DNA of 29,238 nt from a virus, in IMG/VR virus record IMGVR_UViG_3300030060_003632, positions 1-29,238 of that record; one strand, written 5' to 3'. The notes under the pieces are model-generated. The model made no database searches. It worked only from the letters and a program-made list of their open reading frames with translations, and was not told where the DNA came from. Of the stretch, positions 2 through 18,500 are shown piece after piece; the stretch's first letter is position 1; the number at the start of each line of letters is the position of its first letter. The translations under genes were made by a program, and so were the position numbers.

Positions 2-3000
2 GAATATTAAGTTTTGTGCTACACCATAATATATTATAGATGATATATTACCCATATCACTTTGTATTTGATTATAGCCTGGTGTCTTTCTTCTTTTAAC
101 TAAATCAGACAGTGCTTTCTTAGTTAACCTAGTCATCTGCATTGGTGTGTTCTGCCAAGCTAATATTATCCTACCCATAGGACCAGCTTGTTGCATTGAT
201 ATTAAGTCTGGTCTAGAAGACTGTTGTGTTTCTTCAGCTACTTCTTGAAAATCTAAAAACGCCTGTTCTCTAGCTTTATTTTCAGACATACCTTGTTTTA
301 AGTAAGTTTTAATTCTATTTCTATAAAATGCAGCACCACCTGCTGATATTGCAAAGCTATCTGCTATTTGTGTTGGTTTAAAACCTTTTTCTAATAATAA
401 AGCTAGTATAGCCTCTGGTCTACTTTTGCCTTGATTAAAAGCTCTTGTTATTTCAGATGCACTAACATCTATTTGTAATCCAGCTCTTCTTTGTTTTAAC
501 ATTGGAGAGTTAAATATAAATGCAAAATCTTTCCAATATTGAAGTTGATTAGCAAAAGCCGCGCTTGCTTTAAATAAATTGTTATCAGACATGTTAATAA
601 AGTTAACAGTTGATATCGTTTGAAGCGCTGCAGATCTAATATTAAAAAACATAGTTGCAGCAACAGAACCGTTTATCCAATCTAACCACATGTTAACTTG
701 TTTACTTTTACCACCTGGTCTATTAGTACCAGTCTCCATTCTGTATAACATATTTTCTAAAGCATCTCTAAAGTCTGTGCCATATATAGCTTCTATTTTA
801 TTTAAGTTTTGCTCTGAAAATATTATATTTTTATTTTCAATCCACTCAGCTAAAAAATCTTTTCTACCAGCTTTAAGAACCGCATTACTTAAATCGCTAG
901 CTATGCTTTGTACAACCCAATAACCTTCTGGTTGTATGTAGCCCTCTGGTACTCTAGATATAACACCTAGTGCATTAGCAAAGTTTTTTAAATCAGAATT
1001 GTTCTCAACGTGATTTACTAATTCTTCTATTTGTGATTCTGTTATTCCTGGTATTTCAAAACCAGCTTTGTTCCACAAGTAGACTCTTATAGCGTTATCA
1101 TTTGTAAATACAGTTCCAGGTACTTTTTTGTTTAATTTTTTACCAACAGTTTTAAATTGTTTTTTAACAGCTTGATAATCATCTGACATCGACTGTTTAT
1201 ACGTGTTCCACTGTCTAATACCTTTAGCAAATGGATCAAATAAATTCTTTTTAAACCAAGCAGCGTGAGCATCACCTTCTCTACCTCTACCTAAAAATGA
1301 ATAAACTAAACCTTTAAAATCTTCTGCTGATGGTGGAACAAAGAATTTTAATCTACCTTTACCAACACCTACTTTTCTAGCCTCTTGAGTTGAAAATATT
1401 TTTTCAGCTGGTACTTTTTTTGTTTGCTCTAATATTATATTAAGATCTAAAGGAGCTTTTCTACTAAACTTAATTTTAGCTTGTACTACTTTAGATTTAA
1501 TATCTAGTTGTTCTAGTACATTCTTAACAGCCTCTACGTTTGGTAGAGCATCATCTACAAAATACATATCATTGTATCCCTCTGCAAACTTTTCTAACAT
1601 CCAATCAGCTTTAGCTTGACCAGCACTATTACCTAATCCAGTTACATTTTTTCTGGGTATATTTATGCCATTACTTTTTAACCAATCATGTATAGCTTGT
1701 TCACTTTGTGGTGCTCTTGCTGTAAGTATAAATACATTTTCAGGTCCGTACTTTTTAATTTGATTCTTCATCTTTTCAAATAACGGTCCTGGTTTACCTT
1801 TAGTTACCTTATTAAAGTCACTAAAATCAAACTCATAACCTTGAGCAGCTAAGTCTTCACCAACAAATGGCCACTCATTAGATGCTATACGCTGAACATC
1901 ACTACCTTTTTTAGCTATAACAAAGTTATCACTAACACCAACTGTTTCATCAAAGTCAAACGTAGACATGCCTTTAGACTCATTGCTTTTACTATATTTA
2001 TTTAAATTGTCTTGAGCTTTTTTAGTGTTATTTATTTTACTTATAGTTTTTCTAGATGTTGTAATAATAGCTGGATCGCCGCTAGAGTTTATACCTAGAG
2101 TTTGACCAAGTGTTTTACCGTCTAAACCTATTATAGAATTAGGATTTATACCTATACCATCTACATTTACAACATCATTATTAAAATACCTTTGCCACCA
2201 ATTACCATCTATAGCACTCCAGTTTTTAGGCATTAATTTTTGCAACTTAGCTGCGGTTAGTTTTGTGTCCATAGCTTTATCCAGAGCTATTAATTTATAG
2301 TTGTCAATTACAAAATTATAAGATGCTTCAAAATTATTTCCAGATAAAGAAGCATCTAATAAATATAAGTACGCAGCAGTTGCTGGCATAGCGTGTTCAT
2401 ATTCAAACCTAGTTCCAGTTATATTAGTTGAGTAGCCAACAAATTGAGCTCCTAATTTGTGCCAGTGTGATGTATCATTACCGACTAGTTTTAAATAAGT
2501 ACCTATTATAGGTGCTTTATTTTTATCAGCTCTTATAGCTCTATTAAAACGCTTCCACATTTCTTTGTGTATTATAGAAACTTTTTTATTAAACTTGTCT
2601 ATATTACCATTAGCTATGTTTGCTTTTATTTTAGCTGGTGTTTCAAAAAGTGTGGTATAAGATGAAACCTTAAAGTCAATTACATTACCATTAGAGTCTT
2701 TAATGTCCTTGCCAAATTTAACATTATCACTATCTTTTAAGGCTTTTATTCTATCTCTTAAATCATTATAAGCCGCTGCTTGCTCGGGATATTTAAAATC
2801 ACCAATTTTTTTACCTTTAGGTATAACATCGCCTTTCTTGTATTTACCTACTTTTAAACCGTAAGATTGATTACTAGCTGTAAATACCGTACTATCTTTA
2901 CCAAACCAAAAGTTTTTGGGCATCAATGGTAGCAAGTCTTTTTCTATAGCTTTTATAAATGCTTCTCTACCTTCTTGTTTTCTTAAGTTAAAAGTCTTAG

Positions 3001-6000
3001 CAAGCTTATAAACACCACTTAAAAGTTTATCAACACCTTTTGTTTCTAGTTGAAAAGAATCTCTTACGTTTATTATTGCGTTAACCTTTTGACTAAACAT
3101 TACCTCTGATCTACCTTCTCCAACTTTTTCAACAACAGATCTAGCAACACCCTGTTCAATAGCATTCTTTCTTATTTGTTGATTAGCTTCTAGTTGAGCA
3201 ACTTGTAGTATAAAAGCTCTTATGGCACCATCAAGTGATGTACCCTTTTTAGTTGTTCCATCTGGGTTAATACCAAATGCAGCTAAAAAATCTTTATTAG
3301 TTATGTTAGGTTTTTTAACTTGAATAGGTAATCCAGATGCTGTAGCTCCTTCTTTCACTTTAGCTCTACCACCTTTAATATAAAACTTATTTAAAAGACT
3401 AGGCGCAACACCAGTTGCTTTGCCACTTCTATCAGTTCCTTCAGGTAGCATATCTATTAATTTACCTTTCTTAGATAGTTCAACTATTTTATCTCTAGCG
3501 GCTTTTCTTTGTTTACCATCTAGATCTTGATTCTTTCTTATTCTACTAACATCAACACCAAAGTCCTTAGAAACAATATCTAACACTTTATTTAATGGAC
3601 CGTTTGTAATTAATTTCTTAACACCCTTGTATGTTAATTTAGATAAAGGTACATTAGCTTCTTTAACTGTACTTTCTATTTCAGAAACTGATTTATTATC
3701 TAAACCTAATTCTTTATTAACTATTTTACCTTCAGCCTGCTGAACACTAACACCACCGCCCGCTGCTACACCTGTATCAGCAATATCTATATCACCTTCT
3801 TTTGTAGACATAGATATAGTTTCTATATTCTGACCCTTAAGTCTTTTTAGTATCTGACCATATCTACCTTCTAGTAGTCCTCTACCTGTTTGCGGATTTA
3901 TAGTTTGTATGTAGGCGCCAAAGTTTGGGTTAACACTTGGATCCCATGTTTTTGACAAAGCAACTAGCTCGTATAAAAACTCTTGTTGAAACTCTTCTAA
4001 TGGTATAGCTTTATCTGAACTCAAAGATTCTGTACCTGTTCTATAAGCGTTTCTAGCTATTTTATTAGCAACAGCCATGTTGTTTACAACGAGCTGATCT
4101 TTTATTCTTTGTGTTACAGCCTCTTTTAAACTAATATTTTCTTCTTCAGATTTTTTTGCCACCAAAGCAGATAACCTATCGTTTTCTTTTACTATTTCAA
4201 TAGTATTCTTTTTTAAAGTTTCAGATCGTTTTGTTTCAGCTTCTTTACCTTTACCAAAAAGACGATTTAATAATGCAGCTTCTTTAGCGATCTTACTTTT
4301 TTTTATAGCCTTTCTTTGATCTAAGGTTAACGTTCCAGCTTTTATTTTTTTAGCTAAAGCTGTAATAAAAGCAACAGCATCTGTTTCACCTTCAAAGTTG
4401 AAATCAAAATCTGAATTAGTAGCTTTAGCAACTCCTTTTCCAAATAAAAAACCCATTACAGCTCCTAATCCTTTATTGTTTTTAGAATTAAAATCTATTT
4501 TACCTTCAGCTACTAGCTCCATGTATCTAGTTATAACTTCATCTGCACCCATTCCTTGAGTTTCACTTACTAGTAGTGCATATAAATTAGGATTTTGGTT
4601 TTTAGTATATTGTAGTAGTTGATTTGCTATATTTGTAAAGGCCTCTGGGTTTTGACCTATAGCTTCAGAAAGTATTGTGTGACCAAGCTCATGTGTTCTT
4701 GTTTCAAGACGATCGTCTTTAGCCATGTTTTCTACAACTTGAAATGGAATATAATCACCATCATTTGTCGGCATATTAGCACCGTGACCACCTTCTTCTA
4801 TGTTTTTTATTGCTGCAGCTTTGTTAGCGTCAGACACGTTGTCTAGTTTATTTATTTCTTCAATAGCCTGTTCAACGGTTTGATAGTTTCTTAATGACTT
4901 ACCAAGTTTTGTTTTACCTCTTTTGTTTTTATAGTCGTTGTTTATATACTGAGCGTTATATATTAATCTACCTTCCTCTTGCACTTGAGCATCACTAGGA
5001 TTACTATTACCACCCTCTACTAGGTTGTTGTATGCTTCTTGAATTATTTTTTCTCTTTTGTCAGTATCTTCTTTTGAATCACTAGCTAGAAAACCATTAT
5101 ACTTGTTACCAAAAGCTTTAGGATCTTTTAACATATCTATTAGAACTTGATTCTTGTCAAATTTATTTTGAAGATTTTCTAATGCTTTCCTTTTTGTATC
5201 AGCATCTAAAGATGAATCGTTGGTTATTTTTTTAGCTTGATTTCTTATAACCTCTTGTCTTGAAACTAAACCTAGAAACTGTTGAACATTTTTAGCGGCC
5301 ATGTTCTGCATTTGATTTTCAACATTGTCTAGTATTTGATTATTCTCTTTTTCTAATGCATCAATTTGTTCATTTAAAATCTTAGCTGTTTCTGGTTTAA
5401 TGTACTTTCCTGTACCATCAAGTTGGGTTTTAAGATCTGTTATTTTATCTAGATTATCTCTATACTTTTGTTTAACTTCAGAGTTAGAAAATGTATTCAT
5501 CATAACACCCTTAATAAAAGGTGTACCACCAAATATAGTACCAAACATACCACCACTAAAAGCTTGATGAGCTAGATTTTCTGTTATTGGTCTACCAGTT
5601 AAAAGATTTTGCGTTATACCTGTTCCAACTTCTGATGTCATCTCTAACAAGGGATCTATCATTAATTGACGCTTGCCGTTTTGTATAAAATGTTGTTTAA
5701 TGCCATCTAATCCAGACTGCATATTTTTACTACTAGTTCCGTACATAGCTGCCCAAGATCTTTTCATTACCGGTAAAGTAAGAAATCTATCAAATATAAC
5801 CTCAGCTGTACCATATCCAGCGCTTGTTAAAGTCTTCTTTAATAACGATGATTCATTACCTGGGTTTTGAGCATCTTTTCTCAACATGTCTGTCCAATTG
5901 TCACCGGCGCTAGACAAACCTAAAGTTGGTATACCAATTGTTGGAATAGCTATTGTAGCAAATATAGGTATTTGATTACCTATTTCTTGAGCAAGAAATC

Positions 6001-7768
6001 TACCAAAGTTACCTTTTTTAAAAGCGTTTTCAAACTTAACATCTGGTTGAAATTCATTACGAGCAATTCGAGCTGCTTTATCATAGCTAAGTATACTTTT
6101 ATCTAAGGTTTTATTATCAGTGCCCATTAAACTTCCAATAAGTTTACTACCACCGTACCCACCTTTAACTATTATTCTAGAAAAACCAGAGGTTATATTG
6201 TAAGCAAACTTTTCTAAGTCATTGTAGTTTTTTTGTATAAGATTGTTTTTGTAATCACTATCTTGTAAGTTTTCTATTTTATCAAAATTGCTATCAACCC
6301 ATTCTTCAAAGTTTTCAATAGAGGCTTTTGTTACAATACTTGAAACTTCATACTGCTCCCATTTATTTTTAGGAATCTTTCTCCCGTCATTTAAAGTTAC
6401 ATATTCTTCTCCCTCCCCTATAGCAAACCTAGCTGTTGGATCGTTAATAAATTCAATCATATCATTAACAACCTTTGTGTTGGGGTTATTTTCTATAGCA
6501 TCTATTTTAGACTCAAAGTTTAATTCATAAGCTGCTAGTTCTTTTATATCTTTTTCATTTTTTAATAAAGAGCCTATCCTAACTCTATCAATAATACTTT
6601 CTGTGCCAAAACTTACAATCTCACCTGTTTGTCTATCTGTGTATTGACCCCTAGCGGTACCCTCTACCTTGTCAGAGTTCATTATGTCTACAATCTTTTT
6701 CTCTTTAGCTTCATTGGTATCTTTGGTTATTAAATTTTCTCTAGCAATTTTTTCTATCTGCTCTTTAGTTGGTTTCTCGTAACCCTCTCTAATTAATTGT
6801 TGTCTAGCTTTTTCCAACTCCTCTTTATAGGGTTCAATAGTAGTATCGTATGGCGTCACATCAAATCTACCAGTTATGTATTTTGTTTCTGTTATGGGTT
6901 TGAATAAATCTTCGTTTATTGTATCACCATTTTCATTAACAGAAGCGTATTTATTTTTTATATCTTGCCTTTGTTGTTTAGTTAAATCCATGTTTAGTGC
7001 TTCAACTTCACTAACAAGTTTACCTTGATTTATTCTAGATTTTATTTTATCTTCATCTGTAAGAGTGTTTTCTAAAAAATTAATTAAATTAACACTAGAG
7101 TTATTCTTATCTGCTTGGGTACCATAATTACCAAAGTCTAAAATTATATTTTGTCCAGAATTCTTATGTGTTACTTTAACTTTATTAAGATTATATCTAT
7201 CCCAAGTTTCTTCATAAGAAAATGGAGCATCATCACCCTCACCAAACATGCTTTTTAATTGTACTATTGCACCATCTTTGTCATTCTTAAAAAATTCATT
7301 AGTTCTACTAGTTGTTGTTTTTAAATCTTTACCAACTATAAAGCTATATAAACCTTTATTTTTTTCTGATAAATTATATTTTAACTCTTGTTGTTTTTCT
7401 TTTTTTTTAATTTCTTGTTTTTCTTTTCTATCCTTCTCAATTTGATCGCTAGTTAAAACAGTATATTCACCAAAAATATCCTTTTGACTCTCAACAATAT
7501 TACCTTGAGTGTCATATCTTTTTTGGCTCATTTGCTTAACTACATCTTCATCATACCAAGATGGTAATTCCGAAGAAGTATCGTCCGATTGTAATTCCGT
7601 ATTTTCTTGTTGATTGTTTTGGGACTGGCTCGTCCCTTTCGACTTTCCCAACTCATCAGATTCTAGAGTTGCTGTTAAATTTTGTTCTTCTAATTGTTTT
7701 AAGAATTCTTCTTCTTTGTCCAATGGAACCGATATAGGTCTACCATCAGGTAATATATAGTTTTTCAT
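2..7768 (-). CDS. Giant polyvalent protein (metallopeptidase + HAD phosphatase), partial
   Basis: An open frame of at least 2589 codons runs from an ATG at 7766-7768 to the left edge; I read it codon by codon and met no stop. An in-frame TAA at 7778-7780 fixes this ATG as the first possible one. Visible layout: a charged N-terminus; hydrophobic segments around 525-550 and 600-623 (IPIFATIAIPTIGIPTLGL) that may enter a membrane; a K/E/Q coiled-coil zone (about 730-930); a zinc-peptidase motif HELGH (1026-1030) with DE at 1076-1077; a sigma-like patch near 1276; a conserved-looking stretch ending in VAPSLLNKFYIKGGR (about 1460); and a HAD phosphatase module (about 1934-2080). This is the domain mix described for phage polyvalent proteins, thought to be packed in the capsid and injected. 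The C-terminus is missing. Confidence 0.8.
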   Translation of the reverse strand, partial: MKNYILPDGRPISVPLDKEEEFLKQLEEQNLTATLESDELGKSKGTSQSQNNQQENTELQSDDTSSELPSWYDEDVVKQMSQKRYDTQGNIVESQKDIFGEYTVLTSDQIEKDRKEKQEIKKKEKQQELKYNLSEKNKGLYSFIVGKDLKTTTSRTNEFFKNDKDGAIVQLKSMFGEGDDAPFSYEETWDRYNLNKVKVTHKNSGQNIILDFGNYGTQADKNNSSVNLINFLENTLTDEDKIKSRINQGKLVSEVEALNMDLTKQQRQDIKNKYASVNENGDTINEDLFKPITETKYITGRFDVTPYDTTIEPYKEELEKARQQLIREGYEKPTKEQIEKIARENLITKDTNEAKEKKIVDIMNSDKVEGTARGQYTDRQTGEIVSFGTESIIDRVRIGSLLKNEKDIKELAAYELNFESKIDAIENNPNTKVVNDMIEFINDPTARFAIGEGEEYVTLNDGRKIPKNKWEQYEVSSIVTKASIENFEEWVDSNFDKIENLQDSDYKNNLIQKNYNDLEKFAYNITSGFSRIIVKGGYGGSKLIGSLMGTDNKTLDKSILSYDKAARIARNEFQPDVKFENAFKKGNFGRFLAQEIGNQIPIFATIAIPTIGIPTLGLSSAGDNWTDMLRKDAQNPGNESSLLKKTLTSAGYGTAEVIFDRFLTLPVMKRSWAAMYGTSSKNMQSGLDGIKQHFIQNGKRQLMIDPLLEMTSEVGTGITQNLLTGRPITENLAHQAFSGGMFGTIFGGTPFIKGVMMNTFSNSEVKQKYRDNLDKITDLKTQLDGTGKYIKPETAKILNEQIDALEKENNQILDNVENQMQNMAAKNVQQFLGLVSRQEVIRNQAKKITNDSSLDADTKRKALENLQNKFDKNQVLIDMLKDPKAFGNKYNGFLASDSKEDTDKREKIIQEAYNNLVEGGNSNPSDAQVQEEGRLIYNAQYINNDYKNKRGKTKLGKSLRNYQTVEQAIEEINKLDNVSDANKAAAIKNIEEGGHGANMPTNDGDYIPFQVVENMAKDDRLETRTHELGHTILSEAIGQNPEAFTNIANQLLQYTKNQNPNLYALLVSETQGMGADEVITRYMELVAEGKIDFNSKNNKGLGAVMGFLFGKGVAKATNSDFDFNFEGETDAVAFITALAKKIKAGTLTLDQRKAIKKSKIAKEAALLNRLFGKGKEAETKRSETLKKNTIEIVKENDRLSALVAKKSEEENISLKEAVTQRIKDQLVVNNMAVANKIARNAYRTGTESLSSDKAIPLEEFQQEFLYELVALSKTWDPSVNPNFGAYIQTINPQTGRGLLEGRYGQILKRLKGQNIETISMSTKEGDIDIADTGVAAGGGVSVQQAEGKIVNKELGLDNKSVSEIESTVKEANVPLSKLTYKGVKKLITNGPLNKVLDIVSKDFGVDVSRIRKNQDLDGKQRKAARDKIVELSKKGKLIDMLPEGTDRSGKATGVAPSLLNKFYIKGGRAKVKEGATASGLPIQVKKPNITNKDFLAAFGINPDGTTKKGTSLDGAIRAFILQVAQLEANQQIRKNAIEQGVARSVVEKVGEGRSEVMFSQKVNAIINVRDSFQLETKGVDKLLSGVYKLAKTFNLRKQEGREAFIKAIEKDLLPLMPKNFWFGKDSTVFTASNQSYGLKVGKYKKGDVIPKGKKIGDFKYPEQAAAYNDLRDRIKALKDSDNVKFGKDIKDSNGNVIDFKVSSYTTLFETPAKIKANIANGNIDKFNKKVSIIHKEMWKRFNRAIRADKNKAPIIGTYLKLVGNDTSHWHKLGAQFVGYSTNITGTRFEYEHAMPATAAYLYLLDASLSGNNFEASYNFVIDNYKLIALDKAMDTKLTAAKLQKLMPKNWSAIDGNWWQRYFNNDVVNVDGIGINPNSIIGLDGKTLGQTLGINSSGDPAIITTSRKTISKINNTKKAQDNLNKYSKSNESKGMSTFDFDETVGVSDNFVIAKKGSDVQRIASNEWPFVGEDLAAQGYEFDFSDFNKVTKGKPGPLFEKMKNQIKKYGPENVFILTARAPQSEQAIHDWLKSNGINIPRKNVTGLGNSAGQAKADWMLEKFAEGYNDMYFVDDALPNVEAVKNVLEQLDIKSKVVQAKIKFSRKAPLDLNIILEQTKKVPAEKIFSTQEARKVGVGKGRLKFFVPPSAEDFKGLVYSFLGRGREGDAHAAWFKKNLFDPFAKGIRQWNTYKQSMSDDYQAVKKQFKTVGKKLNKKVPGTVFTNDNAIRVYLWNKAGFEIPGITESQIEELVNHVENNSDLKNFANALGVISRVPEGYIQPEGYWVVQSIASDLSNAVLKAGRKDFLAEWIENKNIIFSEQNLNKIEAIYGTDFRDALENMLYRMETGTNRPGGKSKQVNMWLDWINGSVAATMFFNIRSAALQTISTVNFINMSDNNLFKASAAFANQLQYWKDFAFIFNSPMLKQRRAGLQIDVSASEITRAFNQGKSRPEAILALLLEKGFKPTQIADSFAISAGGAAFYRNRIKTYLKQGMSENKAREQAFLDFQEVAEETQQSSRPDLISMQQAGPMGRIILAWQNTPMQMTRLTKKALSDLVKRRKTPGYNQIQSDMGNISSIIYYGVAQNLIF
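1500..1970 (-). other. HAD-superfamily phosphatase module within the giant protein
   Basis: All four HAD motifs are present in the right order and spacing. Motif I is FDFDET (nucleophile D1938, acid D1940), motif II ILTAR (T2016), motif III lysine K2053 in GQAKADWM, and motif IV VDDALPN (D2072, D2073). The region after motif II (QAIHDWLKSNGI) matches the helix usually seen in small HAD phosphatases. It should therefore be an active phosphatase, perhaps on nucleotides or nucleic acid ends; the substrate is unknown. Confidence 0.75.
4535..4693 (-). other. Zinc metallopeptidase motif within the giant protein
   Basis: H1026-E-L-G-H1030 is a full HExxH zinc motif, preceded by RT and followed by TILSEAIG. 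About 50 residues on, the sequence GADEVITRYMEL (E1077) offers a plausible third zinc ligand, which would make it a gluzincin-type enzyme. Catalytic E1027 is present. The target cannot be told: processing of virion proteins, or cleavage of host proteins after entry, are both possible. Confidence 0.7.
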
Positions 7769-7799: not shown

Positions 7800-9056
7800 T
7801 TATTTTATTTCACCTCCTGTGTAAATATTTTCATCACCACTACTTTCGTTGTAATATTCTACTAGTTTTTGAGCTAACTCTTGTTCATCTGGTGTACCAG
7901 CGTATAAGGCTGTTATTTGCCTTTTAACATCTTCTGGTATTGACAAACCCGCCGTGTCAATAGGTGGAGCATCTTTTGGTATTCTTACAGGTCTACCACC
8001 TTTGTAGTAGAAACCAGGAAGCAATTTACTTCTACCAGCAACACCGTTGTTAAAGTTTTGTTTTAAAAACCCTGTAAAATAATTAATCATTTCTTGATTA
8101 GCTAAATTAGCGTATTGAGGATTGTTTATAAGCTCCATAGCTATTTGTTGAGCATCTTCCGGTGTTACGCTACCACCATTAGTATCTAAAGCTTCAATAG
8201 TTTCTTTAGGCACACCTAAGCTAGCGTAGTCTTGTGATTGAATTTTTTGCGTTAAATCTTGATAAAAAGAAGTAGTGCCAAACATATTATCAAACGCGAC
8301 AGATTTTCTATTAGATGTATCATTTAAAAGAGTAGCTATTTGTTGTTGCATCATAGCTTCTGGAAACTGAATATCTTCACCTTCTTTAACCTTTAAAGAT
8401 GCTTCAGTCATTTTATCTGCTAATCCACTTAGTCCAGCCTTAAAGCCTCTATCAAGTAAATTTTTATTTATACTTTCATTTATACTAGATATAGAAGTCC
8501 ACTTACCATCCATCATAACGCCCATGCGACCTTCATCAGCACAGTTTGGTTCGTTAGCTGGACAAACCTTTTGAACTAATCTACTATTATCTTTTAGTAA
8601 ATCTAAATAAGCTTGACCCTCTGGTGTTCCAGAAAAATAAGAGCTAAGTGCTTCGCCTTCAGCATTATCACCTGTAGCTAGTTCAGATAAATTTAATCTT
8701 AAATCTTTATATTCAGCATAATCTTGAGCTTTCATATTTAAATCCCTTATAGATAAAGCTCTACCTTTATTACCACCTAATAAGTAACCTTTTTTACCTT
8801 CCATTAGATTATCATATAAAGCGTCGTATTCAGAAGAAGGTAAATGACCTGCCTCATCTAAAACTTTTTGAGCATAACCTTGATACTCCTCGTTCTTAGT
8901 GTTAACATAATCAGTAAAACCATCTACTACACCTTGTATAGCAGCTGTTGTTCCAAAGGTTCCCAGCATTTTAGCTGCACCTAAGTTTTGTTTAGCTTTA
9001 CCTATAGCAGCCTCGCCAGCTATTAATGCACTACTTAATGAAGTTTTCTTAGCCAT
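7800..9056 (-). CDS. Probable internal virion protein, unknown family
   Basis: I do not recognise this 418-aa protein. Residues 8-48 are rich in A and G with hydrophobic stretches (AAKMLGTFGTTAAIQGVVDG, about 27-46) and could insert in a membrane. The rest is mostly helical and polar, with a cysteine pair in VCPANEPNCADEG (about 164-176). A proline/glycine segment near the C-terminus (FYYKGGRPVRIPKDAPPIDT, about 351-370) may be an exposed loop. It lies between the gp14-like gene and the giant polyvalent gene, with gaps of 20 and 31 nt, so it likely belongs to the same ejected set. There is no signal peptide or enzyme motif. The AGGAGG near its stop codon is part of the coding sequence and too far from the next start to act as a ribosome binding site. 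Confidence 0.55.
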   Translation of the reverse strand: MAKKTSLSSALIAGEAAIGKAKQNLGAAKMLGTFGTTAAIQGVVDGFTDYVNTKNEEYQGYAQKVLDEAGHLPSSEYDALYDNLMEGKKGYLLGGNKGRALSIRDLNMKAQDYAEYKDLRLNLSELATGDNAEGEALSSYFSGTPEGQAYLDLLKDNSRLVQKVCPANEPNCADEGRMGVMMDGKWTSISSINESINKNLLDRGFKAGLSGLADKMTEASLKVKEGEDIQFPEAMMQQQIATLLNDTSNRKSVAFDNMFGTTSFYQDLTQKIQSQDYASLGVPKETIEALDTNGGSVTPEDAQQIAMELINNPQYANLANQEMINYFTGFLKQNFNNGVAGRSKLLPGFYYKGGRPVRIPKDAPPIDTAGLSIPEDVKRQITALYAGTPDEQELAQKLVEYYNESSGDENIYTGGEIK

Positions 9057-9076
9057 ATTATTTAATCTTAATTTTA

Positions 9077-10042
9077 TTATCCTCCTTGATTAATTGTTGG
9101 ACCGTAAGTTCCTGGTGCAACTTCGTAATCGTAGTTAGTTGTAAACATATCTCCTGAGCCAATAGGCCATTCAAAAGTTTGATTAGCACCCTGCTGTGCC
9201 CTAGCTAGTCTAAAAGCTTCTTCAAAAGGCGTGCCACTACTTGTATCTCCTTGCGATACAGGAAGTGTGCCAGATCTTGTAGGCAGATCCATGCTAATAC
9301 CAGTATCCAACTTATCAATTGTTTTAGGCGCTAAAGTTGTTGCAGCGTTTGGATCTATACCTAAACTCCTAGCACTAGAACCATTAAATATATTAGCTAA
9401 AGCACCAGCTTGTACGCCAGCTATAGCGGCTTGACCAACACCTTTTATAATTCCACCTATTGCAGCTGTTTTAGCCATTTTAGCTTGACTCTGTCTATTC
9501 ATAGCCGCAGCTCTTCTTTGTTGAGCCATAGCTAATAGTGTTTCTGTTTGGTTTTGTTTTAAACCTCTAGAATATACTTCTCCTTTTCTTTCTAAGTTTT
9601 GAAGCTGACCAGCCATAGCTCTTTCAGCTCTTTGATTAGTTGCTTCTTGTTGACCTATACTAGCGGCAGATCTTTGAGAAGCTAATTGTCCTTGCTGTGC
9701 TAGAGATTGAGCTAGTGCTGCTATACCACTTCCACCAGCAGCCTCTCTTAAACCTGACATTATATTAGCTTGACTTTGAGCAAATTGTTGTCTTGAGAAC
9801 TCTGCCTGCTTTTGATTTATAGTCAAGTCTTCCATAACGTTCTCCATGTTTAAATATGGATTACTAGTATCTAAATTTTTATAAGCCTCTAGTTGTCGTT
9901 GATACTCTTCTTTGGCTCTTTTGTTTTGTCTTCTAGCTCTACGCTGTTCTTTTTTCGCCGCGCTAAGATTTGCTATACCACCACCTATTGAGGTTAAAGC
10001 TCCAATTCCTGCTGTGGCTATACTTACTGCTACAAATGACAT
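9077..10042 (-). CDS. Internal virion / ejection protein (T7 gp14-like role)
   Basis: This is a 321-aa protein. Residues 3-27 are a hydrophobic, glycine/alanine-rich helix, followed by a basic patch (KKEQRRARRQNKRAK, 30-44) and a long Q/A-rich coiled coil (about 45-190). The segment SGLREAAGGSGIAALAQSLA (96-115) is the signature I recall from internal proteins of marine short-tailed phages. A second hydrophobic glycine/alanine segment lies at about 191-219, and the C-terminal third is probably disordered. Two membrane-active helices around a coiled coil fit a protein stored in the head and inserted into the host envelope during DNA ejection. T7 gp14 is shorter (196 aa). The role is inferred from architecture and from the adjoining large proteins. 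Confidence 0.65.
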   Translation of the reverse strand: MSFVAVSIATAGIGALTSIGGGIANLSAAKKEQRRARRQNKRAKEEYQRQLEAYKNLDTSNPYLNMENVMEDLTINQKQAEFSRQQFAQSQANIMSGLREAAGGSGIAALAQSLAQQGQLASQRSAASIGQQEATNQRAERAMAGQLQNLERKGEVYSRGLKQNQTETLLAMAQQRRAAAMNRQSQAKMAKTAAIGGIIKGVGQAAIAGVQAGALANIFNGSSARSLGIDPNAATTLAPKTIDKLDTGISMDLPTRSGTLPVSQGDTSSGTPFEEAFRLARAQQGANQTFEWPIGSGDMFTTNYDYEVAPGTYGPTINQGG

Positions 10043-10044
10043 AG

Positions 10045-10542
10045 TTATTTATTTTTATTATTAATATATTCGTTATATTCTTCGTAACTTAAAGCTACGA
10101 TATTTTTTTCTAACTCCCTAACATCTTCTATATTGCTAGGATTTTTATGGGTATTGTACCAACAAGATTTCTCATGAGAATACAAAACTCTTTTTTCACC
10201 TGGTTCTGCTATTATAAAACAAGGAGCTATATATTCTTTAGTACCATTTTCACTAACAACACTAAGATGTCCTTCTAATAAAAAACACATATGAAGATGT
10301 TTGTGTATAGCTCCAATAACAACAGTATCTTTAAACATTGTCATCTTTCTAACGTAAACACCATCCATAAAAAAATGCTCTATTGGTATGTGTTCACTAT
10401 CTGTTACTATTGGATTATCTTCTGTACCCGCTATTATAGTTTCATTATCAGCTATAGATTTTAATTTACTTTCTAATTCAGTAACAGACTTTCTAAAATC
10501 TTTACTAAGTTTAAAACCTGTAAGATCTATTATTTTATTCAT
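10045..10542 (-). CDS. Cupin-fold protein (phage cupin)
   Basis: This 165-aa protein has a single cupin domain. Motif 1 is visible as GAIHKHLHMCFLLEG (residues 77-91), with H82, H84 and E90 at the spacing of cupin metal ligands and H80 in addition. Motif 2 lies around PGEKRVLYSHEKS (114-126), with H123 as the expected last ligand and a further H132. Residues 1-45 form a helical leader rich in K, S and E. I remember short cupin proteins with an IHK-x-x-H pattern in marine short-tailed phages near structural genes, without a known substrate. It could bind a divalent metal and act as a small enzyme, or be a virion protein that kept the fold. Neighbours are structural on both sides, and the next gene starts 2 nt after its stop. 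Confidence 0.75.
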   Translation of the reverse strand: MNKIIDLTGFKLSKDFRKSVTELESKLKSIADNETIIAGTEDNPIVTDSEHIPIEHFFMDGVYVRKMTMFKDTVVIGAIHKHLHMCFLLEGHLSVVSENGTKEYIAPCFIIAEPGEKRVLYSHEKSCWYNTHKNPSNIEDVRELEKNIVALSYEEYNEYINNKNK

Positions 10543-10584
10543 TTAATTAAATTTAACTACTAATATAGTTACATTTATTGCTAT

Positions 10585-10989
10585 TTATTTACTACTTTCA
10601 CTTATCTCACAGCCAACTGAATACAACTCTGCTCTACTAGAAGAACTATTTTTAAAATTAGCAGAACCATAATATCCTACTACAGAAGATCTATTAACAG
10701 TATTATCTTTACTAAAAAATAAATAATCAGTGTTACTTAAGTTAACAGTAGAATTAACATCAACAGTTATAGCTTTGGTTAGCGTTGTGACAGGATTTAG
10801 TGGATCTGTAGCTCCATCTACTATGCTGCCATCAGCTATAGCAGTAACTGGACCAAGTTGCTCTATACCTGTGGTTTCGCTAACGTTAAACCCACCTTCT
10901 ACATCTGTTGATCCAGATTTATATATAAAATCACCAACCTGTAAAGATGGAAAGTGTTGTCTTTTTAAATGTATTATTTGTGTACTCAT
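10585..10989 (-). CDS. Small virion structural protein, unknown role
   Basis: This is a 134-aa protein encoded 1 nt after the 510-aa gene. The N-terminus has IHLKRQHFPSLQVGDFIYKS (residues 6-25), with a QVGDFIY strand typical of small beta-barrel virion proteins. The middle shows VTAIADGSIVDG and the C-terminus ends in VGCEISESSK. I recall the latter, as VGSE...ESSK-like endings, in short structural proteins of uncultured marine phages. No membrane segment or catalytic motif is visible. Its place after the tail proteins suggests a tail accessory or head-decoration protein. A 42-nt A/T-rich gap separates it from the cupin gene, and I see no terminator there. Confidence 0.55.
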   Translation of the reverse strand: MSTQIIHLKRQHFPSLQVGDFIYKSGSTDVEGGFNVSETTGIEQLGPVTAIADGSIVDGATDPLNPVTTLTKAITVDVNSTVNLSNTDYLFFSKDNTVNRSSVVGYYGSANFKNSSSSRAELYSVGCEISESSK

Positions 10990-10990
10990 G

Positions 10991-12523
10991 TTAAGAAGCT
11001 GTTGATATGTTATCTATATTTAAATTAAACGTTGTATTTCCATCACCAAATCTCTGTATGAATATGTCATACTTAACAGTTAACACTGTATTCGCGCTAG
11101 ATCTAGTGGCAGATATATTTAAAATCTCAACGTGGTTATTACCTTGAGAAGAAGACGGAACAGAGTTTGTCCAAGAAGAATTAGATTGATTAGAACTAGA
11201 CCAAGTTGGAAGAGTTGGTGTACTAAAAGTAGTACCACCTGTAGCTGAAGCCACTATAGTTACTTGACTAAAAGTGTTTAAACCGTTAATATGTTTAAGA
11301 TCTTTGATAAACTTACCAACTTTTCCAGTGAAGCTAGTAGAAGATCCTCTAGATATAGAAACATTAGCTTGAGATTCAGTAGCTGAAAATGTCATAACTG
11401 GATCACTAAGTTGTCTTAATTTATATCTTTCTCTAATATTTCTAGACAGCGTTGTTCCTGATTTTGGAACAACCTCTAAAGTATATGTTTCAGATGCATT
11501 AGCGGGAAAATCTTGCAAAAAACTAAAACTTCTAGAAATGCCCTGGTTCTTGTTGTTACCAAAATAAAGCTCGCTATTTGTCGTCACAGTCATGCATGGC
11601 ATGCTAGCAAAAGGGTTTGATATAATATTATCATTTACAAGATGATTACTTAAAATAGATGTGCCATCAGATTTGTATATAGCGATACTAAATTCAGCTC
11701 CTTTACTTGCTTGTACAATTATTCTTCTTGTGTCACCTAAATGACTTATGTATTTATCGTTACCAAAATCAAACTTATTTACTTGTTTTATATCTTTTCT
11801 TATTTTTTCAGCTTTATAAGATAATATTATATCATCTTTATTAACGTCTTGATTAACCAAAGCTATTATATCAAAAGAATACTCTGTTATAAATCCTTTT
11901 CTGTCTGAATAAAAAATACTACTTTCACTCTTAACAACAGATGTTGTTTTTATTTCTATAGAACTACTATCAAATCCTCTATAAATAAGAGTAGGTTTGT
12001 TTTTAAAATAACACCCAGAGTTTGCTGTGACTTTTAAAGTAGCTATAGTTGTTTGAACACCTTTTTTTAAGGTACTAGATATAGCAACTGTTTTTATACC
12101 ATCAGATGTAGATTCAGTTAAAGAACTTGTTGTGTCTGTAAATGTAGATGTAGCAAACTCGTTAATATTACTATTGTCTATTATATTAGATTTGAACGTA
12201 AATGATACATCATTTTTATCAAATATTTTAGCATCACCAACTATATTTAAATATATATTCAAATTAGTTGTTGCTACAAAATCAGAACTAAAAGTAGCAG
12301 TACCAACAACATTGTTGCCAATGGTTCCAGCTGTAGATGAGTCAGTAAAGGCCACGGACTCTATACTGGAAGGTAAATTAATAACTGAAAAGTCTGAAGC
12401 AGAAACTACATAACCAGAGTTGGGTGTTATAGTTATACTACCCGACGTAGCCATATTGTTAAAAAATATAGAGTCGTTTTTAGTTTCTTTTGTTAAAAAG
12501 TTTGTTACAGTATAATTAGCCAT
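10991..12523 (-). CDS. Beta-rich tail or fibre-like structural protein, unknown family
   Basis: I do not recognise this 510-aa protein as a named family. The composition is rich in S, T, N, V and I with almost no cysteine. Alternating hydrophobic and polar residues throughout suggest stacked beta-sandwich domains. Segments such as SGSITITPNSGYVV (about residues 27-40) and TLEVVPKSGTTLSRNIRERY (about 349-368) look like repeated Ig-like or BACON-type strands, though I cannot assign a family. There is no signal peptide, coiled coil or enzyme motif. It overlaps the giant tail gene by 8 nt and is followed 1 nt later by a small structural gene, which places it in the tail assembly. A receptor-binding or tail-surface role is the most natural guess. 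A capsid-decorating protein is the alternative. Confidence 0.5.
   Translation of the reverse strand: MANYTVTNFLTKETKNDSIFFNNMATSGSITITPNSGYVVSASDFSVINLPSSIESVAFTDSSTAGTIGNNVVGTATFSSDFVATTNLNIYLNIVGDAKIFDKNDVSFTFKSNIIDNSNINEFATSTFTDTTSSLTESTSDGIKTVAISSTLKKGVQTTIATLKVTANSGCYFKNKPTLIYRGFDSSSIEIKTTSVVKSESSIFYSDRKGFITEYSFDIIALVNQDVNKDDIILSYKAEKIRKDIKQVNKFDFGNDKYISHLGDTRRIIVQASKGAEFSIAIYKSDGTSILSNHLVNDNIISNPFASMPCMTVTTNSELYFGNNKNQGISRSFSFLQDFPANASETYTLEVVPKSGTTLSRNIRERYKLRQLSDPVMTFSATESQANVSISRGSSTSFTGKVGKFIKDLKHINGLNTFSQVTIVASATGGTTFSTPTLPTWSSSNQSNSSWTNSVPSSSQGNNHVEILNISATRSSANTVLTVKYDIFIQRFGDGNTTFNLNIDNISTAS
12516..12523 (-). other. 8-nt stop/start overlap
   Basis: The sequence ATGGCTAA holds the start codon of the 510-aa gene (12521-12523) and, in another frame, the TAA stop of the giant tail gene (12516-12518). 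Such an overlap usually means translational coupling, so the 510-aa protein is probably made by ribosomes finishing the tail protein. Confidence 0.85.
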
Positions 12524-15500
12524 CGTATAAAGTTAATGAATCAAAGTTTGATGAAGCACCAGATCCCTCAGTTAAAAAGACTTGACCCGTAATAGATCTA
12601 CTTGAAAAATCTATAGGATCATCAGCCGCATTAAAGTTGGTAAACTCTTCTATTGTTATTGTCCACAATCCCTCTCCAAATGCATTATAGTTTGTGTTTG
12701 GGTTGCCAACATTGTTGAATTGCGTAAAATAATTAGCATTTAGATATGCAGTACTTGATATTACTGTAGTATTAATACCGTCTATAGCAAAATCAACTTC
12801 TGTGCCATCTAATTGGCTAGTAATATAATTTCTAGCCACAAGGCCGTTAGGAGCTGTCCATGTGTACTTTTTTGGAGCAGTTGTTACACCAGTGTCTAAG
12901 CTAGGAGATATTGATCCGCTGTAGTTTAGTAAAAAAATAATCTCAAGTGGTGGTAATTCTCCTAGTACAATATTTACTTCAGAAGAACTTAATACAGTAC
13001 CAGTTGAATCACTAGATATAGGATTACCTAAACCTTGAACAGCTATTTGTCCCATATCGTTCGTAAGATCTCCAGTAGATAAATTACTTTTTGAACTTAT
13101 TATTCTATTAAACCATTTGTTTTCTTTATTAATAAATTCATCAACCTGTCCAACCTGCATGTCTGTAGTAAAAGTATCAACATACCATCCAGTCTGCCCA
13201 TCTAAATTATAGTATTCATCACTATACGTTACACCCGCACTTGTAGCCTCTGACTGCATATCTATAATCTTACCCTGCGTGCCCTCGTAGTTAACAGCTT
13301 TAAACGATTTAACCACGCTAGGTAAATCATTAAATACTATTTCAATAGATGAACTACCAGTTTTTCCATAAAAATTATTTCTAGCCATATCATCACGATG
13401 ATGCTCGTACACTTCGTTCATTTTATCTTCAACATTATAAGGCCCGACTTTTTCACTTGTTGTTGTTAGGTATTTACCAGATACAGTTAAACCTGTTGTT
13501 GGAACAAAAGATTTAAAACTAACCCAGCCTTTACTACCCTCATTAAAACTTACGGATTTGTTAGTTAAACTTAAATCATCATCAAAATCTAAAGATAGAT
13601 TATACTCACCGTTTACACCATCAAAAGTTCCAACAAGTGAATCACATTTTTTTAAGTTTTCTCTAAAATAAGTTCTCATTCCAACGTCTGATATTGGAGT
13701 TAAACCGTCCATTGATAACCTAAGAACCGCGCCTCTTTGCTTGTCAGTAAAGTATAGTCTATAACTATCAGAAGCTAAAGATTCCGGATTAGTTGATATA
13801 CCATAATCACCGGCATAAGGAGTTGCATCACCTAAAACTCTATTAGTTGCCACCAACTGAGGATTACCATCTGCATTAAACACAGCATCTTTGTTGGCTA
13901 GAACTTTTAAAACTTTATCTTCAGAAAAAACAACTATATTATTATCTCTACTTTTTAGAGCTTGAATAGATCCGTAAGATGGGTTTATATTCTTTGTTAT
14001 TTTTTCAGCCATATTAAACTCGTTCAAGTTATTAACACTTGATATAGAGTTGTATAAGCCCGAGTGTATAAGTCCACTACTTATATTTTCTTGTCCATAC
14101 TCTAAAAACGTAGAAGAAACTCTACAACCATTATCTATTGTAGGCGTATTAAAATCATCACGTATTCTGTCAGACTCAATTCCGTTACCAAAAGAATAAC
14201 AATTAAACCAATTTAACATAACAGGATATCTCCAGATATTTCTATCAAGTTTAAAGTAACCTGTTTGCTCTATAAATGTAAACGTGGGATTATCAGCACT
14301 TCCTTGTATATTTGAAGTTAAAGCATTATTAAGTCTAACCTCTAAAATATCTAATGTTCCAGAAGGACCACCACCTCCAACTTCATTAAAATCTTTGTAT
14401 TGTATTTTTTTTATATACGTGTGTTTTGGAACTAATCCACTTGTGCTAGACGTTACAAACATACCTATTTTTAAAATTTTTCCTACCGCCTGACCTAACG
14501 CATCAGTTGGAACAGTATAATTACCTAGCAAACCTGGAGATATATCTGTTTCAAAACTCACACTTTCATAGTTATCATCAACAACGTTTACCGCGTCGCC
14601 ATCTTCATCTGTAGCTGAAGCAGAAGTATTTAAATCCGTACTAAAAGTTGTAAATCTAAAAAGTGTTTGATTTTGATCTTCTTGTACAGCAATACTAGTA
14701 GTCATGTTTACACTAGGTTTAAGAGATATTCTATTAGATTGCCTAAAAGAATCGCGGTTAAGCACCTCCGCACCTATTTTTTGCACATGATCAACCACTA
14801 AACTTTCTGTTTGACAACCGTCTGGTCTTCTAAAACAAACTCTATCACCAATGCTAATAATATCTTGATTTATTGATTCAAAAAGTAAACCAGGTGTAGT
14901 TGCAATACTTTGTGGAACAAGATTTGATGATGTTTGAACGTACTCTTCATCTTGAGCTCCTGGGTTAGTCAACTCTACGATTTGATCTTTTTTTATCTGA
15001 ACCACATTATCGTTAAAAGAAGCAAAAGCAAATGCCGAGTTGTTAACTTCTACGTACTCGTATGAACCTTGTGATACTCTAGGTTTAACATAAAAAGAGC
15101 TAGCTAGTGCAGCGTTTTTAGAAGAACCAACAAATGATTGTAAGTTGTCACTTTTTAGTATCATTGGTATAGCTGGACTTGCTTCATAATATATATCTAT
15201 ATCTGCAGTTTCTTTAGGCTCTGTTTCCCAACAAGCTGCTGTTGTTTCAAAAAACAAATCCGCATCAGCATTCATTGCTCTTTCAACTATTTCTATTCCA
15301 AAAGTTTCAGTACCATCGTGACGAACCTGCCCTCTTGGATCGAAGTAAGTAATATCTATACCTGTTCCAGGTAGGGTTTCGTTTAATTCACCAACTCTAG
15401 CAAATCTAACTATAAAAGTAGATCTTAAAGCTGCTGTTTCTGCTTTATTAACCTCTGGAGTTTTTGAGCTATCATAAAAGTTAGAAATTTGGTGTATTTC

Positions 15501-18500
15501 TAGATTACCTACAAATTGAAGCGAATCACTAGAGCCGGTAAAGATATTATCAATGTATTGAGTATTTTGTAAAATTCTATAAACCGTTTGAGAGGGATCA
15601 GCTGTAAACCTAAACAAAGTGCCTGGATTTTGCATTAAGTTCTTAAAGTTGTTATTGTCGCCATCTGTAAACTGACTTGGATATGTTGCTGATCCTAGGT
15701 TTATATCGGTGTAACCACTTATACTAGCAATATTACCTCTCTGTGAGGTAGTGGCAGAATTTTCAGATACGTCACTAACATTAGCTACACAAGAGAATGA
15801 CATTTGCCCATACTGTCCTGCACTTGCAAAACCCCCAGCGATTCCATGGGGTTTATAATTTTCACTATATCCAGTATTCCCAAAACCACCAAGACTTCCT
15901 TCATCATCCCAAACATCATACAAACTTGGGTGTTCTGGAGACGTAAGAAGTTCCTCAATATATTGTGGTAATCCTGTTCCATCATTGTAATTACTGTTAA
16001 CATTAGGAGCTGCATATGAAGATTGTAGATTTCCTTCAAAGTTACCAAATATTTGATAGCCACTTACAGTTGCACCTTGATCACCAGAATTTCTCCATAC
16101 ACTATGACTAATAGGACTTCCGTGACCAAAGTGGTGAAGAAGTCTATTAGTAGCCATATTAAGCCCAACACTCGCAGGGCCTGGGAATCTATATGTGTAA
16201 TCTTTTGCAGCTGGAGCTTCGTCTAGAAATATTTGAGTTGTAGTTTTGTTATACCAATTTTGCCAAAATTCTTTTGTTTTTTTGTAGTTTCCTGGTCCAA
16301 ACTCTGGAACCCCTTGAGTAAATGCTGCAGTTATAGCTACTTCATCTGAATACTCTATACCATAAGAGTTTTCAAACGACAACCTAAGTTTAAAATCTGG
16401 AAGATATTGATCGTTTGTTTCAGAGTTCATGTTTGCATCAATTGTCGGGCCGTTAACAAGATCGTCAACATCATTACTTGTTGTAAAACCAGCTACACTT
16501 CCAGTTATAGTACTATTGTAAGCAGCCCATAAATAATCTGATTGATTACCATTAGTAGCTGGATTTTGGTTATCATTAGTTATATATGCTATATCAAAAG
16601 AATTAAGAACGTTGTAATCTCCAGAACCTCTACTTGTTACTTTAGCGTCTAAAGTTTCATCTCTTTGTATTTTAACAAAAAACTTTCCAGCAAACTCAGG
16701 ACCCTCATGTTCAACCTCATCAAAAAACTCCATCGTATAGTTTATGTAATCAGCGTTACCAGTATTATCTGCATCCTCTTGATCTAAATCACCAGATATA
16801 CCTAGCTCTGTAAGCTGGTTGTTTATCTTGGTGTACATATTAACTTCGTTTGAATTGAACACCTTGTCAATGGTTATACTGTAAGGTGAACTACCGCTAC
16901 CTCTAAAGTTACTAGCTGTTCTAAACGGACTTTCTGCTATAAATGGAGTTACTGGATCAGTAGCATCATTCTCAAATGTACCTCTTATTTTAACTCTAGG
17001 CGTTCCTCTAAACATGTCTAAATTAATACCGAAACTATTGCTTGTCTCTATTTTGTTTACACTTATTAATTTATCTGGATAAGCATTTGTAGTAGCACCT
17101 GAAGTGCCTGAGTAAATATGATTTCTTGAAATTATTACGCTACCGACTGGATTTTGCTTAAGCTTTATAAAACTAGGGGCTTCATTTTCGATGGCTAGTA
17201 TTTTATACCTAGCAGGTTCTAAAACAGGTTGTTGACTACCATGTTCGTTTTTTAATATCAAGTAAGTCTCTTCATCTACTTTGTTTCTATCAGCTGAATT
17301 AAAAGATAACCAAAGACCATCATCTCCAGAATCAAAAAACCTATCCATAACTAGGTTATAGTATTCACTAGAAACTTCTTTTACATAATATTTTACATAA
17401 TCCATCCAACTCTCTGGGGTAGCATCCCAGTCCTGCTGTAATTGAAATTGGTTTTTAAAATGACAAAGTGTTTTTTCTACAGTAGCATCTCCAGTTGTAA
17501 CCTCACCCGCAGCTGTTTTAAAACTGCTAGGTAAAACTGGAGTTTCTCTACCGTACTTATCACCAAAAACCATACCCCACTTATAAGTTCTTATTGATTT
17601 TACAGATTTTTCAGGATTTGGAAATCCAATTGGATTAGAAATTACAGTTTGTTTTAAACCAATAGGTGTAGTTATTTCATAACCTTGAGTATAGTTTCCA
17701 TAGACTAATCTACTACCAGTTACTTCTTGTGCTTTAGCTTTTATAGGAACATTATCCCAAGATCTTAAAAGTTGATTAGATTCTAAAACTCTATTTATCA
17801 TTTCAGAGGTTATGGTTAGCTTTCCAAAATCTTCACCACCTTCAAACTCATTACCTGTACCATCAAAAGCTTCTACATAATCTTCCCATTCACTATCTCG
17901 CTCTCTAGTTATACTTTTTACTACGTAAATATTTTGATCATCTGTTGTTTTAAAAAGTATATCGACAGCTCTAACGTCATTTGGTCTTACTGATAAAGCG
18001 GGGATAAAACCTCTAACAATAAGCTCTCTAACATTATTCTGCATACCAGCATTAAAGCCGTTTTTAGGCGAATATAAAAATTCACCAGGTAAAAAAGCTA
18101 GTTCAGACCAAGGTGAAAAAGCTGAATATTCTCCATCTTCATATTTATATCTATAACCAAATCTACCAAACTTTGTTTCAAAAAGAGGTTTCTTTAATAG
18201 TACTTCAACATCCCAGTTTGTTGGATTTAAAGTACTCAACCTACTATCTACAAAGACACATAAAATTATATATCCATTTGTATCATCGGTTGAATCATAG
18301 AAAATAGGACCCTCTATGACTTGAGCGTCTATAAGAACTGGTGTTAAATCATAAGAAGTACTAGTAAATCTAAGTATATCATTTTCTCTAACATCTATAA
18401 CACTAGGTAATCTAACATATCTCTCAGAACCACTTGTGGCAATCTCATCACCTTGCTTTATTAAGTATGCTTGCTCCGCGGAAGAAGGGTCATTTCCAAC

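Follow-up and report, generated by a model that had tools for sequence, protein, structure and literature searches.

The last gene of the virion gene block in a linear, 29,238-base IMG/VR virus record (the whole stretch of DNA that was analysed, hereafter the window) encodes a giant polyvalent protein, in whose family a zincin, a Pnkp-type HAD phosphatase and a C-terminal domain are constant, a nested kinase is optional and a sigma-like domain is probable. The protein is probably a self-processed effector of RNA-end healing that would be injected into the host cell, and the virus is likely an uncultured marine podovirus of Bacteroidetes. Polyvalent proteins have been described as very large phage proteins with several unrelated enzyme domains and a zincin as their hub, and self-processing by the zincin as well as injection together with the DNA were proposed for them (Iyer et al. 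2017, PMC5512222). The giant shares with these proteins the large size, the several unrelated enzyme domains and the zincin. In contrast, the words "sigma", "phosphatase" and "haloacid" are absent from that text, and the passages of it that we consulted do not name "HAD" as a domain; we found no junction motif described in it, and the C-terminal domain of the giant matches no Pfam LPD family.

The giant gene is read on the minus strand (Table 1). Its extent and its 2589 codons without a stop had been given correctly in the initial annotation, which left the strand unstated; the plus strand at these positions contains many stops and is not an open frame, and the gene is truncated by the contig end, complete relatives being ~260-300 residues longer and ending, for the most part, in Cys/His repeats. 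The frame is kept in more than 20 other IMG/VR contigs (~46-76% identity over the aligned stretches), and the C-terminal domain alone retrieved at least 593 IMG/VR loci, as compared with 24 for a search with the whole protein, which shows that the frame did not arise by chance. The description of a multi-enzyme giant of the polyvalent type closing a virion gene block was borne out, as were the zincin and HAD modules, and each of the modules that had been named (zincin, HAD and sigma-like patch) was recovered at a defined place. The "membrane-type segments" shrank to the single clear hydrophobic stretch found by hydropathy.

Table 1. Features of the giant and of the two genes preceding it. Positions are those of the window; residues are those of the giant.
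Feature	Residues	Positions	Strand	Basis or remark
Giant ORF	1-2589	2..7768	minus	ATG at 7768; 2589 codons, no stop; 3' end beyond the left edge of the window
N-terminal leader	1-399	6572..7768	minus	Variable among relatives (conservation profile)
N-core	400-870	5159..6571	minus	Homology to phi18:3 gp123, a virion protein, and to other giants
Hydrophobic (membrane-type) segment	600-620	5909..5971	minus	Hydropathy; the sole clear one
Zincin module	940-1176	4241..4951	minus	HExxH plus distal Glu, both invariant (22 aligned sequences)
Zincin active-site motif HELGH	1026-1030	4679..4693	minus	Motif
Sigma-70 region-2-like helical domain	1177-1311	3836..4240	minus	AlphaFold2 model; Foldseek, VIA-align
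Module S4	1312-1556	3101..3835	minus	No known family
Junction motif MFSQ	1557-1560	3089..3100	minus	F in 36/43 and S in 39/43 aligned sequences
Module S5	1561-1923	2000..3088	minus	Confidently folded; near-invariant Glu-His pair; no known family
Junction variant KYSK	1924-1927	1988..1999	minus	Motif variant
HAD phosphatase, Pnkp 3'-phosphatase type	1928-2099	1472..1987	minus	Motifs, model
HAD motif I FDFDET	1937	1943..1960	minus	Nested-kinase P-loop ~35 residues further on in 23/93 relatives
Junction motif KFSR	2100-2103	1460..1471	minus	Motif
C-terminal domain	2104-2589 and on	2..1459	minus	Best-conserved part of the family; no Pfam family
First small ejection-type protein, 321 aa		9077..10042	minus	N-terminus hydrophobic; profile matches phi18:3 gp120 and Gundel gp072 weakly
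Second small ejection-type protein, 418 aa		7800..9056	minus	By position only

The giants constitute a large, unnamed family that is common in marine viromes, yet its hallmark, the C-terminal domain, has neither a Pfam family nor a tblastn match among 50,697 isolate phage records. The whole giant likewise had no tblastn match among these records, and gp074 of the Tenacibaculum phage Gundel, missed by tblastn, was detected by profile only. Pfam, PHROGs and PDB-sequence searches with the whole giant gave no useful match. We assembled 93 distinct giants including that of the window, 81 of them full length by our own criterion (2256-3871 aa). The HExxH motif occurs in 81/81 full-length giants and the HAD in 79/81 (72 by motif pattern and a further 7 by profile), with the zincin upstream of the HAD in all 72 giants tested; zincin and HAD together, in 79/81, and a kinase, in 23/93, place at least two unrelated biochemical activities on one polypeptide. 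The N-terminal half is a mosaic, conserved at ~20-40%, whose modules swap freely among relatives, and the HAD and the C-terminal domain are conserved at ~60-88%.

TerL and the capsid-type protein of the window match those of Manatee Spring podovirus, Maribacter phage Panino, Elemovirus and Cellulophaga phages of Pachyviridae and Pervagoviridae, TerL additionally matching Tenacibaculum Gundel. The nearest isolates thus belong to Elemovirus, Pachyviridae, Pervagoviridae and unclassified phages, and because NCBI places none of them in Crassvirales, the label "crAss-like" attached to this gene block at first is only loosely right and does not hold in the formal sense. In bacterial genomes, the C-terminal domain was matched in metagenome-assembled genomes of Flavobacteriaceae, Saprospiraceae and other Bacteroidetes, some of these bins looking contaminated; the host is likely a marine member of the Bacteroidetes, judging from these sequence matches.

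On the minus strand, the window encodes in order the terminase, the portal (phrog_6547), a scaffold-like protein, the capsid-type protein (phrog_13704) and further virion proteins, followed by a 2438-aa protein (phrog_14478), small tail proteins, the two ejection-type proteins and, last, the giant. Positions 10045-10542 encode a short protein of the tail-fibre type (phrog_12032, E 1e-27), which separates the ejection-type genes from the virion genes. The profile of the 321-aa protein weakly matched phi18:3 gp120 (E 6e-5) and Gundel gp072 (1e-7) in a search against 10 sequences, and sequence searches with the 418-aa protein gave no significant match. In Cellulophaga phage phi18:3, which has the same order of final genes, gp120, gp121 and gp123 carry virion-protein annotations with the remark "experimental MS/MS proteomics", and the N-core of the giant is homologous to gp123 (HMM E-value 3e-26) as well as to phi38:1 gp101 (9e-24), elemoF (2.5e-18), the Panino protein (1e-14) and Gundel gp074 (5e-34). 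This homology and shared gene order with an MS/MS-annotated virion protein support the initial proposal of packing in the virion, and the giant is probably packaged in the phage head and would be injected with the DNA. It is the N-core that is tied to virions in this way, since phi18:3 gp123 has neither the zincin nor the HAD motif.

Two isolate proteins resemble the giant to different degrees: phi18:3 gp123 and Tenacibaculum Gundel_1 gp074 are both giants that end a run of virion genes and carry the same N-core, and Gundel_1 gp074 shares the zincin motif and the C-terminal domain too, differing by a weak match to GNAT and the lack of any match to HAD. The GNAT acetyltransferase match in Gundel_1 gp074 (L034:7109-14557) covers residues 896-966, between N-core and zincin motif, and may represent a payload swap. 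The last virion gene of Panino (L027:31738-37227) is annotated as a tRNA methyltransferase, and phrog_4752 (tRNA methyltransferase) matches one member of our alignment A1, probably this gene, hinting at another RNA-directed payload. Giant proteins delivered from virions are also known in two other settings. Phage N4 encodes, as gp50-gp51-gp52, a giant virion RNA polymerase of ~3500 aa together with two smaller ejection proteins, and the polymerase is ejected into the cell (PMC12633501); in Bacteroidetes phages of the Crassvirales, virion RNA polymerase proteins are giant and virion-delivered (PMC7886860). The window resembles N4 in the three-gene cassette with a giant encoded beside two smaller ejection proteins, and the Crassvirales in the host group and in the predicted delivery of a giant from the virion. 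Unlike both, it yielded no RNA polymerase family in the giant; in place of one, the protein has a domain resembling sigma and a HAD of the Pnkp type, and, as set out above, its nearest isolates fall outside Crassvirales.

In the zincin module, H1026, E1027, H1030 and the downstream Glu ligand E1077 are invariant across 22 aligned sequences. The assignment rests on this motif and its conservation; a search of the zincin profile against PDB returned chance matches only, and the module also had no match in NCBIfam.

The HAD module, recognised from the outset, has a complete set of motifs: besides motif I, these are ILTAR (2014-2018), K2053 and VDD (2071-2073), and the residues D1938, D1940, T2016, K2053, D2072 and D2073 are invariant in alignments of 17 and 57 sequences. 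Its AlphaFold2 model (mean pLDDT 76) matches HADs, and by fold and profile it is of the Pnkp 3'-phosphatase type. In VIA-align, the five best matches of the model were the phosphatases of T4 Pnkp and bacterial Pnkp1 (Z 12.6-11.6); the next matches, the first of them at Z 11.4, lie less than 1 to 1.5 below, matches within 1 Z unit being regarded as tied. By profile, phrog_415 ("polynucleotide kinase") matches inside the giant in 15/25 records of relatives (best E 2.8e-7), on the HAD where the match was mapped, and had no match outside the giant in those records. The sequence search against PDB was weak (PNKP, E 0.4), and Foldseek E-values exceeded 0.001 for this model and for the sigma-like one alike.

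Of the 93 giants, 23 have a P-loop kinase embedded in the HAD, at a single fixed site; the giant of the window itself carries none. The P-loop lies 35 residues after motif I in 22/23 kinase-bearing giants, namely those with an intact motif I, and the C-terminal tree implies four or five gains or losses. The insert matches AAA_33 (2e-11) and Zeta_toxin (1e-8), both over the curated cut-offs, and also resembles adenylate kinase. RNA ligase genes were detected in 9 of the 25 records of relatives, that of the close relative L003 among them, with 6 over the curated cut-off, and were not found in the other 16, which are possibly partial records. PNK-HAD enzymes accompany RNA ligases in jumbo phages as well (PMC7824862). 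Taken together, the Pnkp-like model, phrog_415, the nested kinase, the RNA ligases and the jumbo-phage pairing make RNA end healing the best reading of the HAD, its substrate being predicted from these associations. T4 Pnkp and the bacterial Pnkp1/Rnl/Hen1 system share with the giants the HAD fold (their phosphatases being the best structural matches, Z 12.6 and 12.3) and, in some relatives, a kinase partner and an RNA ligase. The arrangement differs: in T4 Pnkp the phosphatase is C-terminal (matched residues 156-300) with the kinase before it, whereas the kinase of the giants, where present, is nested within the HAD.

Zeta_toxin matches over the cut-off, a BFVD relative named UDP-N-acetylglucosamine kinase and the many small-molecule HADs that score Z 9-11 with the model would also suit a pair of enzymes acting on small molecules, that is, a Zeta-toxin-like UDP-GlcNAc kinase with a nucleotidase or sugar phosphatase, which would block cell-wall synthesis or rearrange nucleotide pools. 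We consider this rather unlikely, given that Pnkp phosphatases hold the five best places (albeit within the tie noted above), that phrog_415 falls on the HAD and that relatives encode RNA ligases. As a separate observation, the giant of L090 has FDFDET at residues 255 and 2529, perhaps reflecting a duplicated HAD with its second copy of the motif near the N-terminus.

That these modules have lost their enzymatic function and persist as spacers in what is mainly an ejection and scaffold protein appears very improbable. Such decay would be in line with the free exchange of N-terminal modules and with the C-terminal domain, rather than the zincin, being the best-kept part, but the catalytic residues are invariant (HExxH and the distal Glu in the zincin, the HAD motifs in 57 sequences), and the P-loop of the kinase, like its distance from HAD motif IV, is equally constant in all 23 kinase-bearing giants.

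For the sigma-like patch pointed out in the initial annotation, structure lends support and sequence tests detect nothing. All 50 VIA-align matches listed for its model are sigma factors (Z 9.3-7.3), as are the first 13 Foldseek matches in PDB (E 0.14); an RpoS region 2 fragment aligns with the model over 93/96 residues at 2.6 A, and in BFVD viral sigma factors rank high, with probability up to 0.96. The region has no Pfam match, Sigma70_r2 included, and none in NCBIfam, and the PDB sequence search gave a sigma factor in matching register at the weak E-value of 1. An ordinary helical bundle with a chance likeness to sigma region 2 would account for the failed sequence tests and for the Foldseek E-value, and helical bundles can reach such Z scores by chance; this is a substantial possibility, somewhat short of even, against which stand the exclusive presence of sigma factors among the listed VIA-align and first PDB matches, their high rank in a second library and the matching register of the PDB sequence hit. 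On the modelled structure, we lean towards a sigma region 2 fold for residues 1177-1311, and regard a sigma function as possible but less likely than not. No paper in a term-based literature search combined all the terms of a virion-associated, ejected sigma factor. A separate phage sigma gene was considered as the source of the domain and dropped, since neither hhalign nor hmmsearch matched the domain to the sigma genes that these phages encode. Separate genes for an RNA ligase (~283 aa) and a sigma-70 factor (~252 aa) lie ~2 kb apart in L116, L122 (9108-9956, 11416-12171), L123, L124 and L125.

S4 and S5, searched as single modules, had no match in NCBIfam, and neither they nor the C-terminal domain gave a structural match when searched as parts of larger models. 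Where these modules meet their neighbours, we detected a recurring tetrapeptide, [KRM]FS[KRQ]. It occurs 93 times in the 81 giants, 72 of these within three short zones, at densities of 3.2 (S4/S5), 3.9 (S5/HAD) and 11.7 (HAD/C-terminal) per 1000 residues as compared with 0.09 elsewhere, the level of shuffled sequences; at the two HAD junctions, the motif reaches 7.0 per 1000 against 0-2.8 for scrambled versions. Gundel_1 gp074 does not contain the FS tetrapeptide. Because the zones were picked after the first hits had been seen and the copies at one junction share descent, the strength of the motif lies in its recurrence at unrelated junctions. We propose it as a candidate processing site at three non-homologous module junctions, where cleavage is predicted. 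It is a nearly balanced question whether the tetrapeptide is instead a linker or docking signature, or marks where a folded element ends, and is copied along with the modules: inheritance of the HAD/C-terminal site in one alignment column fits such a role, and its appearance at three junctions with unrelated flanks, at chance level elsewhere, speaks for a processing site.

The best explanation overall, which we favour by a modest measure, is a giant polyvalent virion protein that is injected, serves RNA-end healing and has its modules freed by cleavage. In this model, the ejection machinery probably consists of the two smaller upstream-encoded proteins and the N-core, and the giant would enter the cell together with the DNA, like the N4 virion RNA polymerase. 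The zincin, or another protease, would then probably cut at the [KRM]FS[KRQ] junctions and free the payload modules. The Pnkp-type HAD most likely trims 3'-phosphates off broken RNA, probably off tRNAs that defence nucleases of the host have cut; in the quarter of relatives that have it, the nested P-loop kinase would add 5'-phosphates, and the separately encoded RNA ligase would seal the healed ends. Host RNA polymerase may be a binding partner of the sigma-like domain. A more far-reaching version, in which a self-cleaving virion polyprotein delivers at once a sigma-like factor and a phosphatase that heals RNA ends (or, in some phages, a complete nested kinase-phosphatase), such that tRNA damaged by host defences is mended and host RNA polymerase is diverted ahead of any phage gene expression, with the FS tetrapeptide as the cut site between modules, is speculative and, taken whole, improbable.

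The giant suggests a virus that arrives in the cell already equipped for repair and take-over. If RNA-end healing does enter with the DNA, the phage would begin to counter nucleases that cut tRNA before its genes are expressed, and two fields, those of polyvalent proteins and of phage RNA repair, would become linked. The junction motif turns the self-processing of polyvalent proteins, proposed since 2017, into a testable prediction at the level of residues.

Individual relatives show further features. The Manatee Spring podovirus giant (L029:741-12320; 3859 aa), annotated as "reticulocyte binding/rhoptry protein", contains HEFGH twice and lacks the HAD motif. In the Elemovirus giant (L030:1719-12803), a DUF3293 domain (residues 1323-1392) occurs shortly before the zincin motif (HEIFH 1543). 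The giant of L022 is divided between two frames (8111-12688 and 12807-17954), broken near S4, and the near-identical L020 has a single frame, so that the split reflects either fission or a sequencing error. Finally, the giants of L003, L006, L008 and others end in Cys/His repeats, at least one each, that follow the pattern RCxx...KCYAH, with weak DUF5763 and zf-primase matches, and these repeats probably bind zinc.
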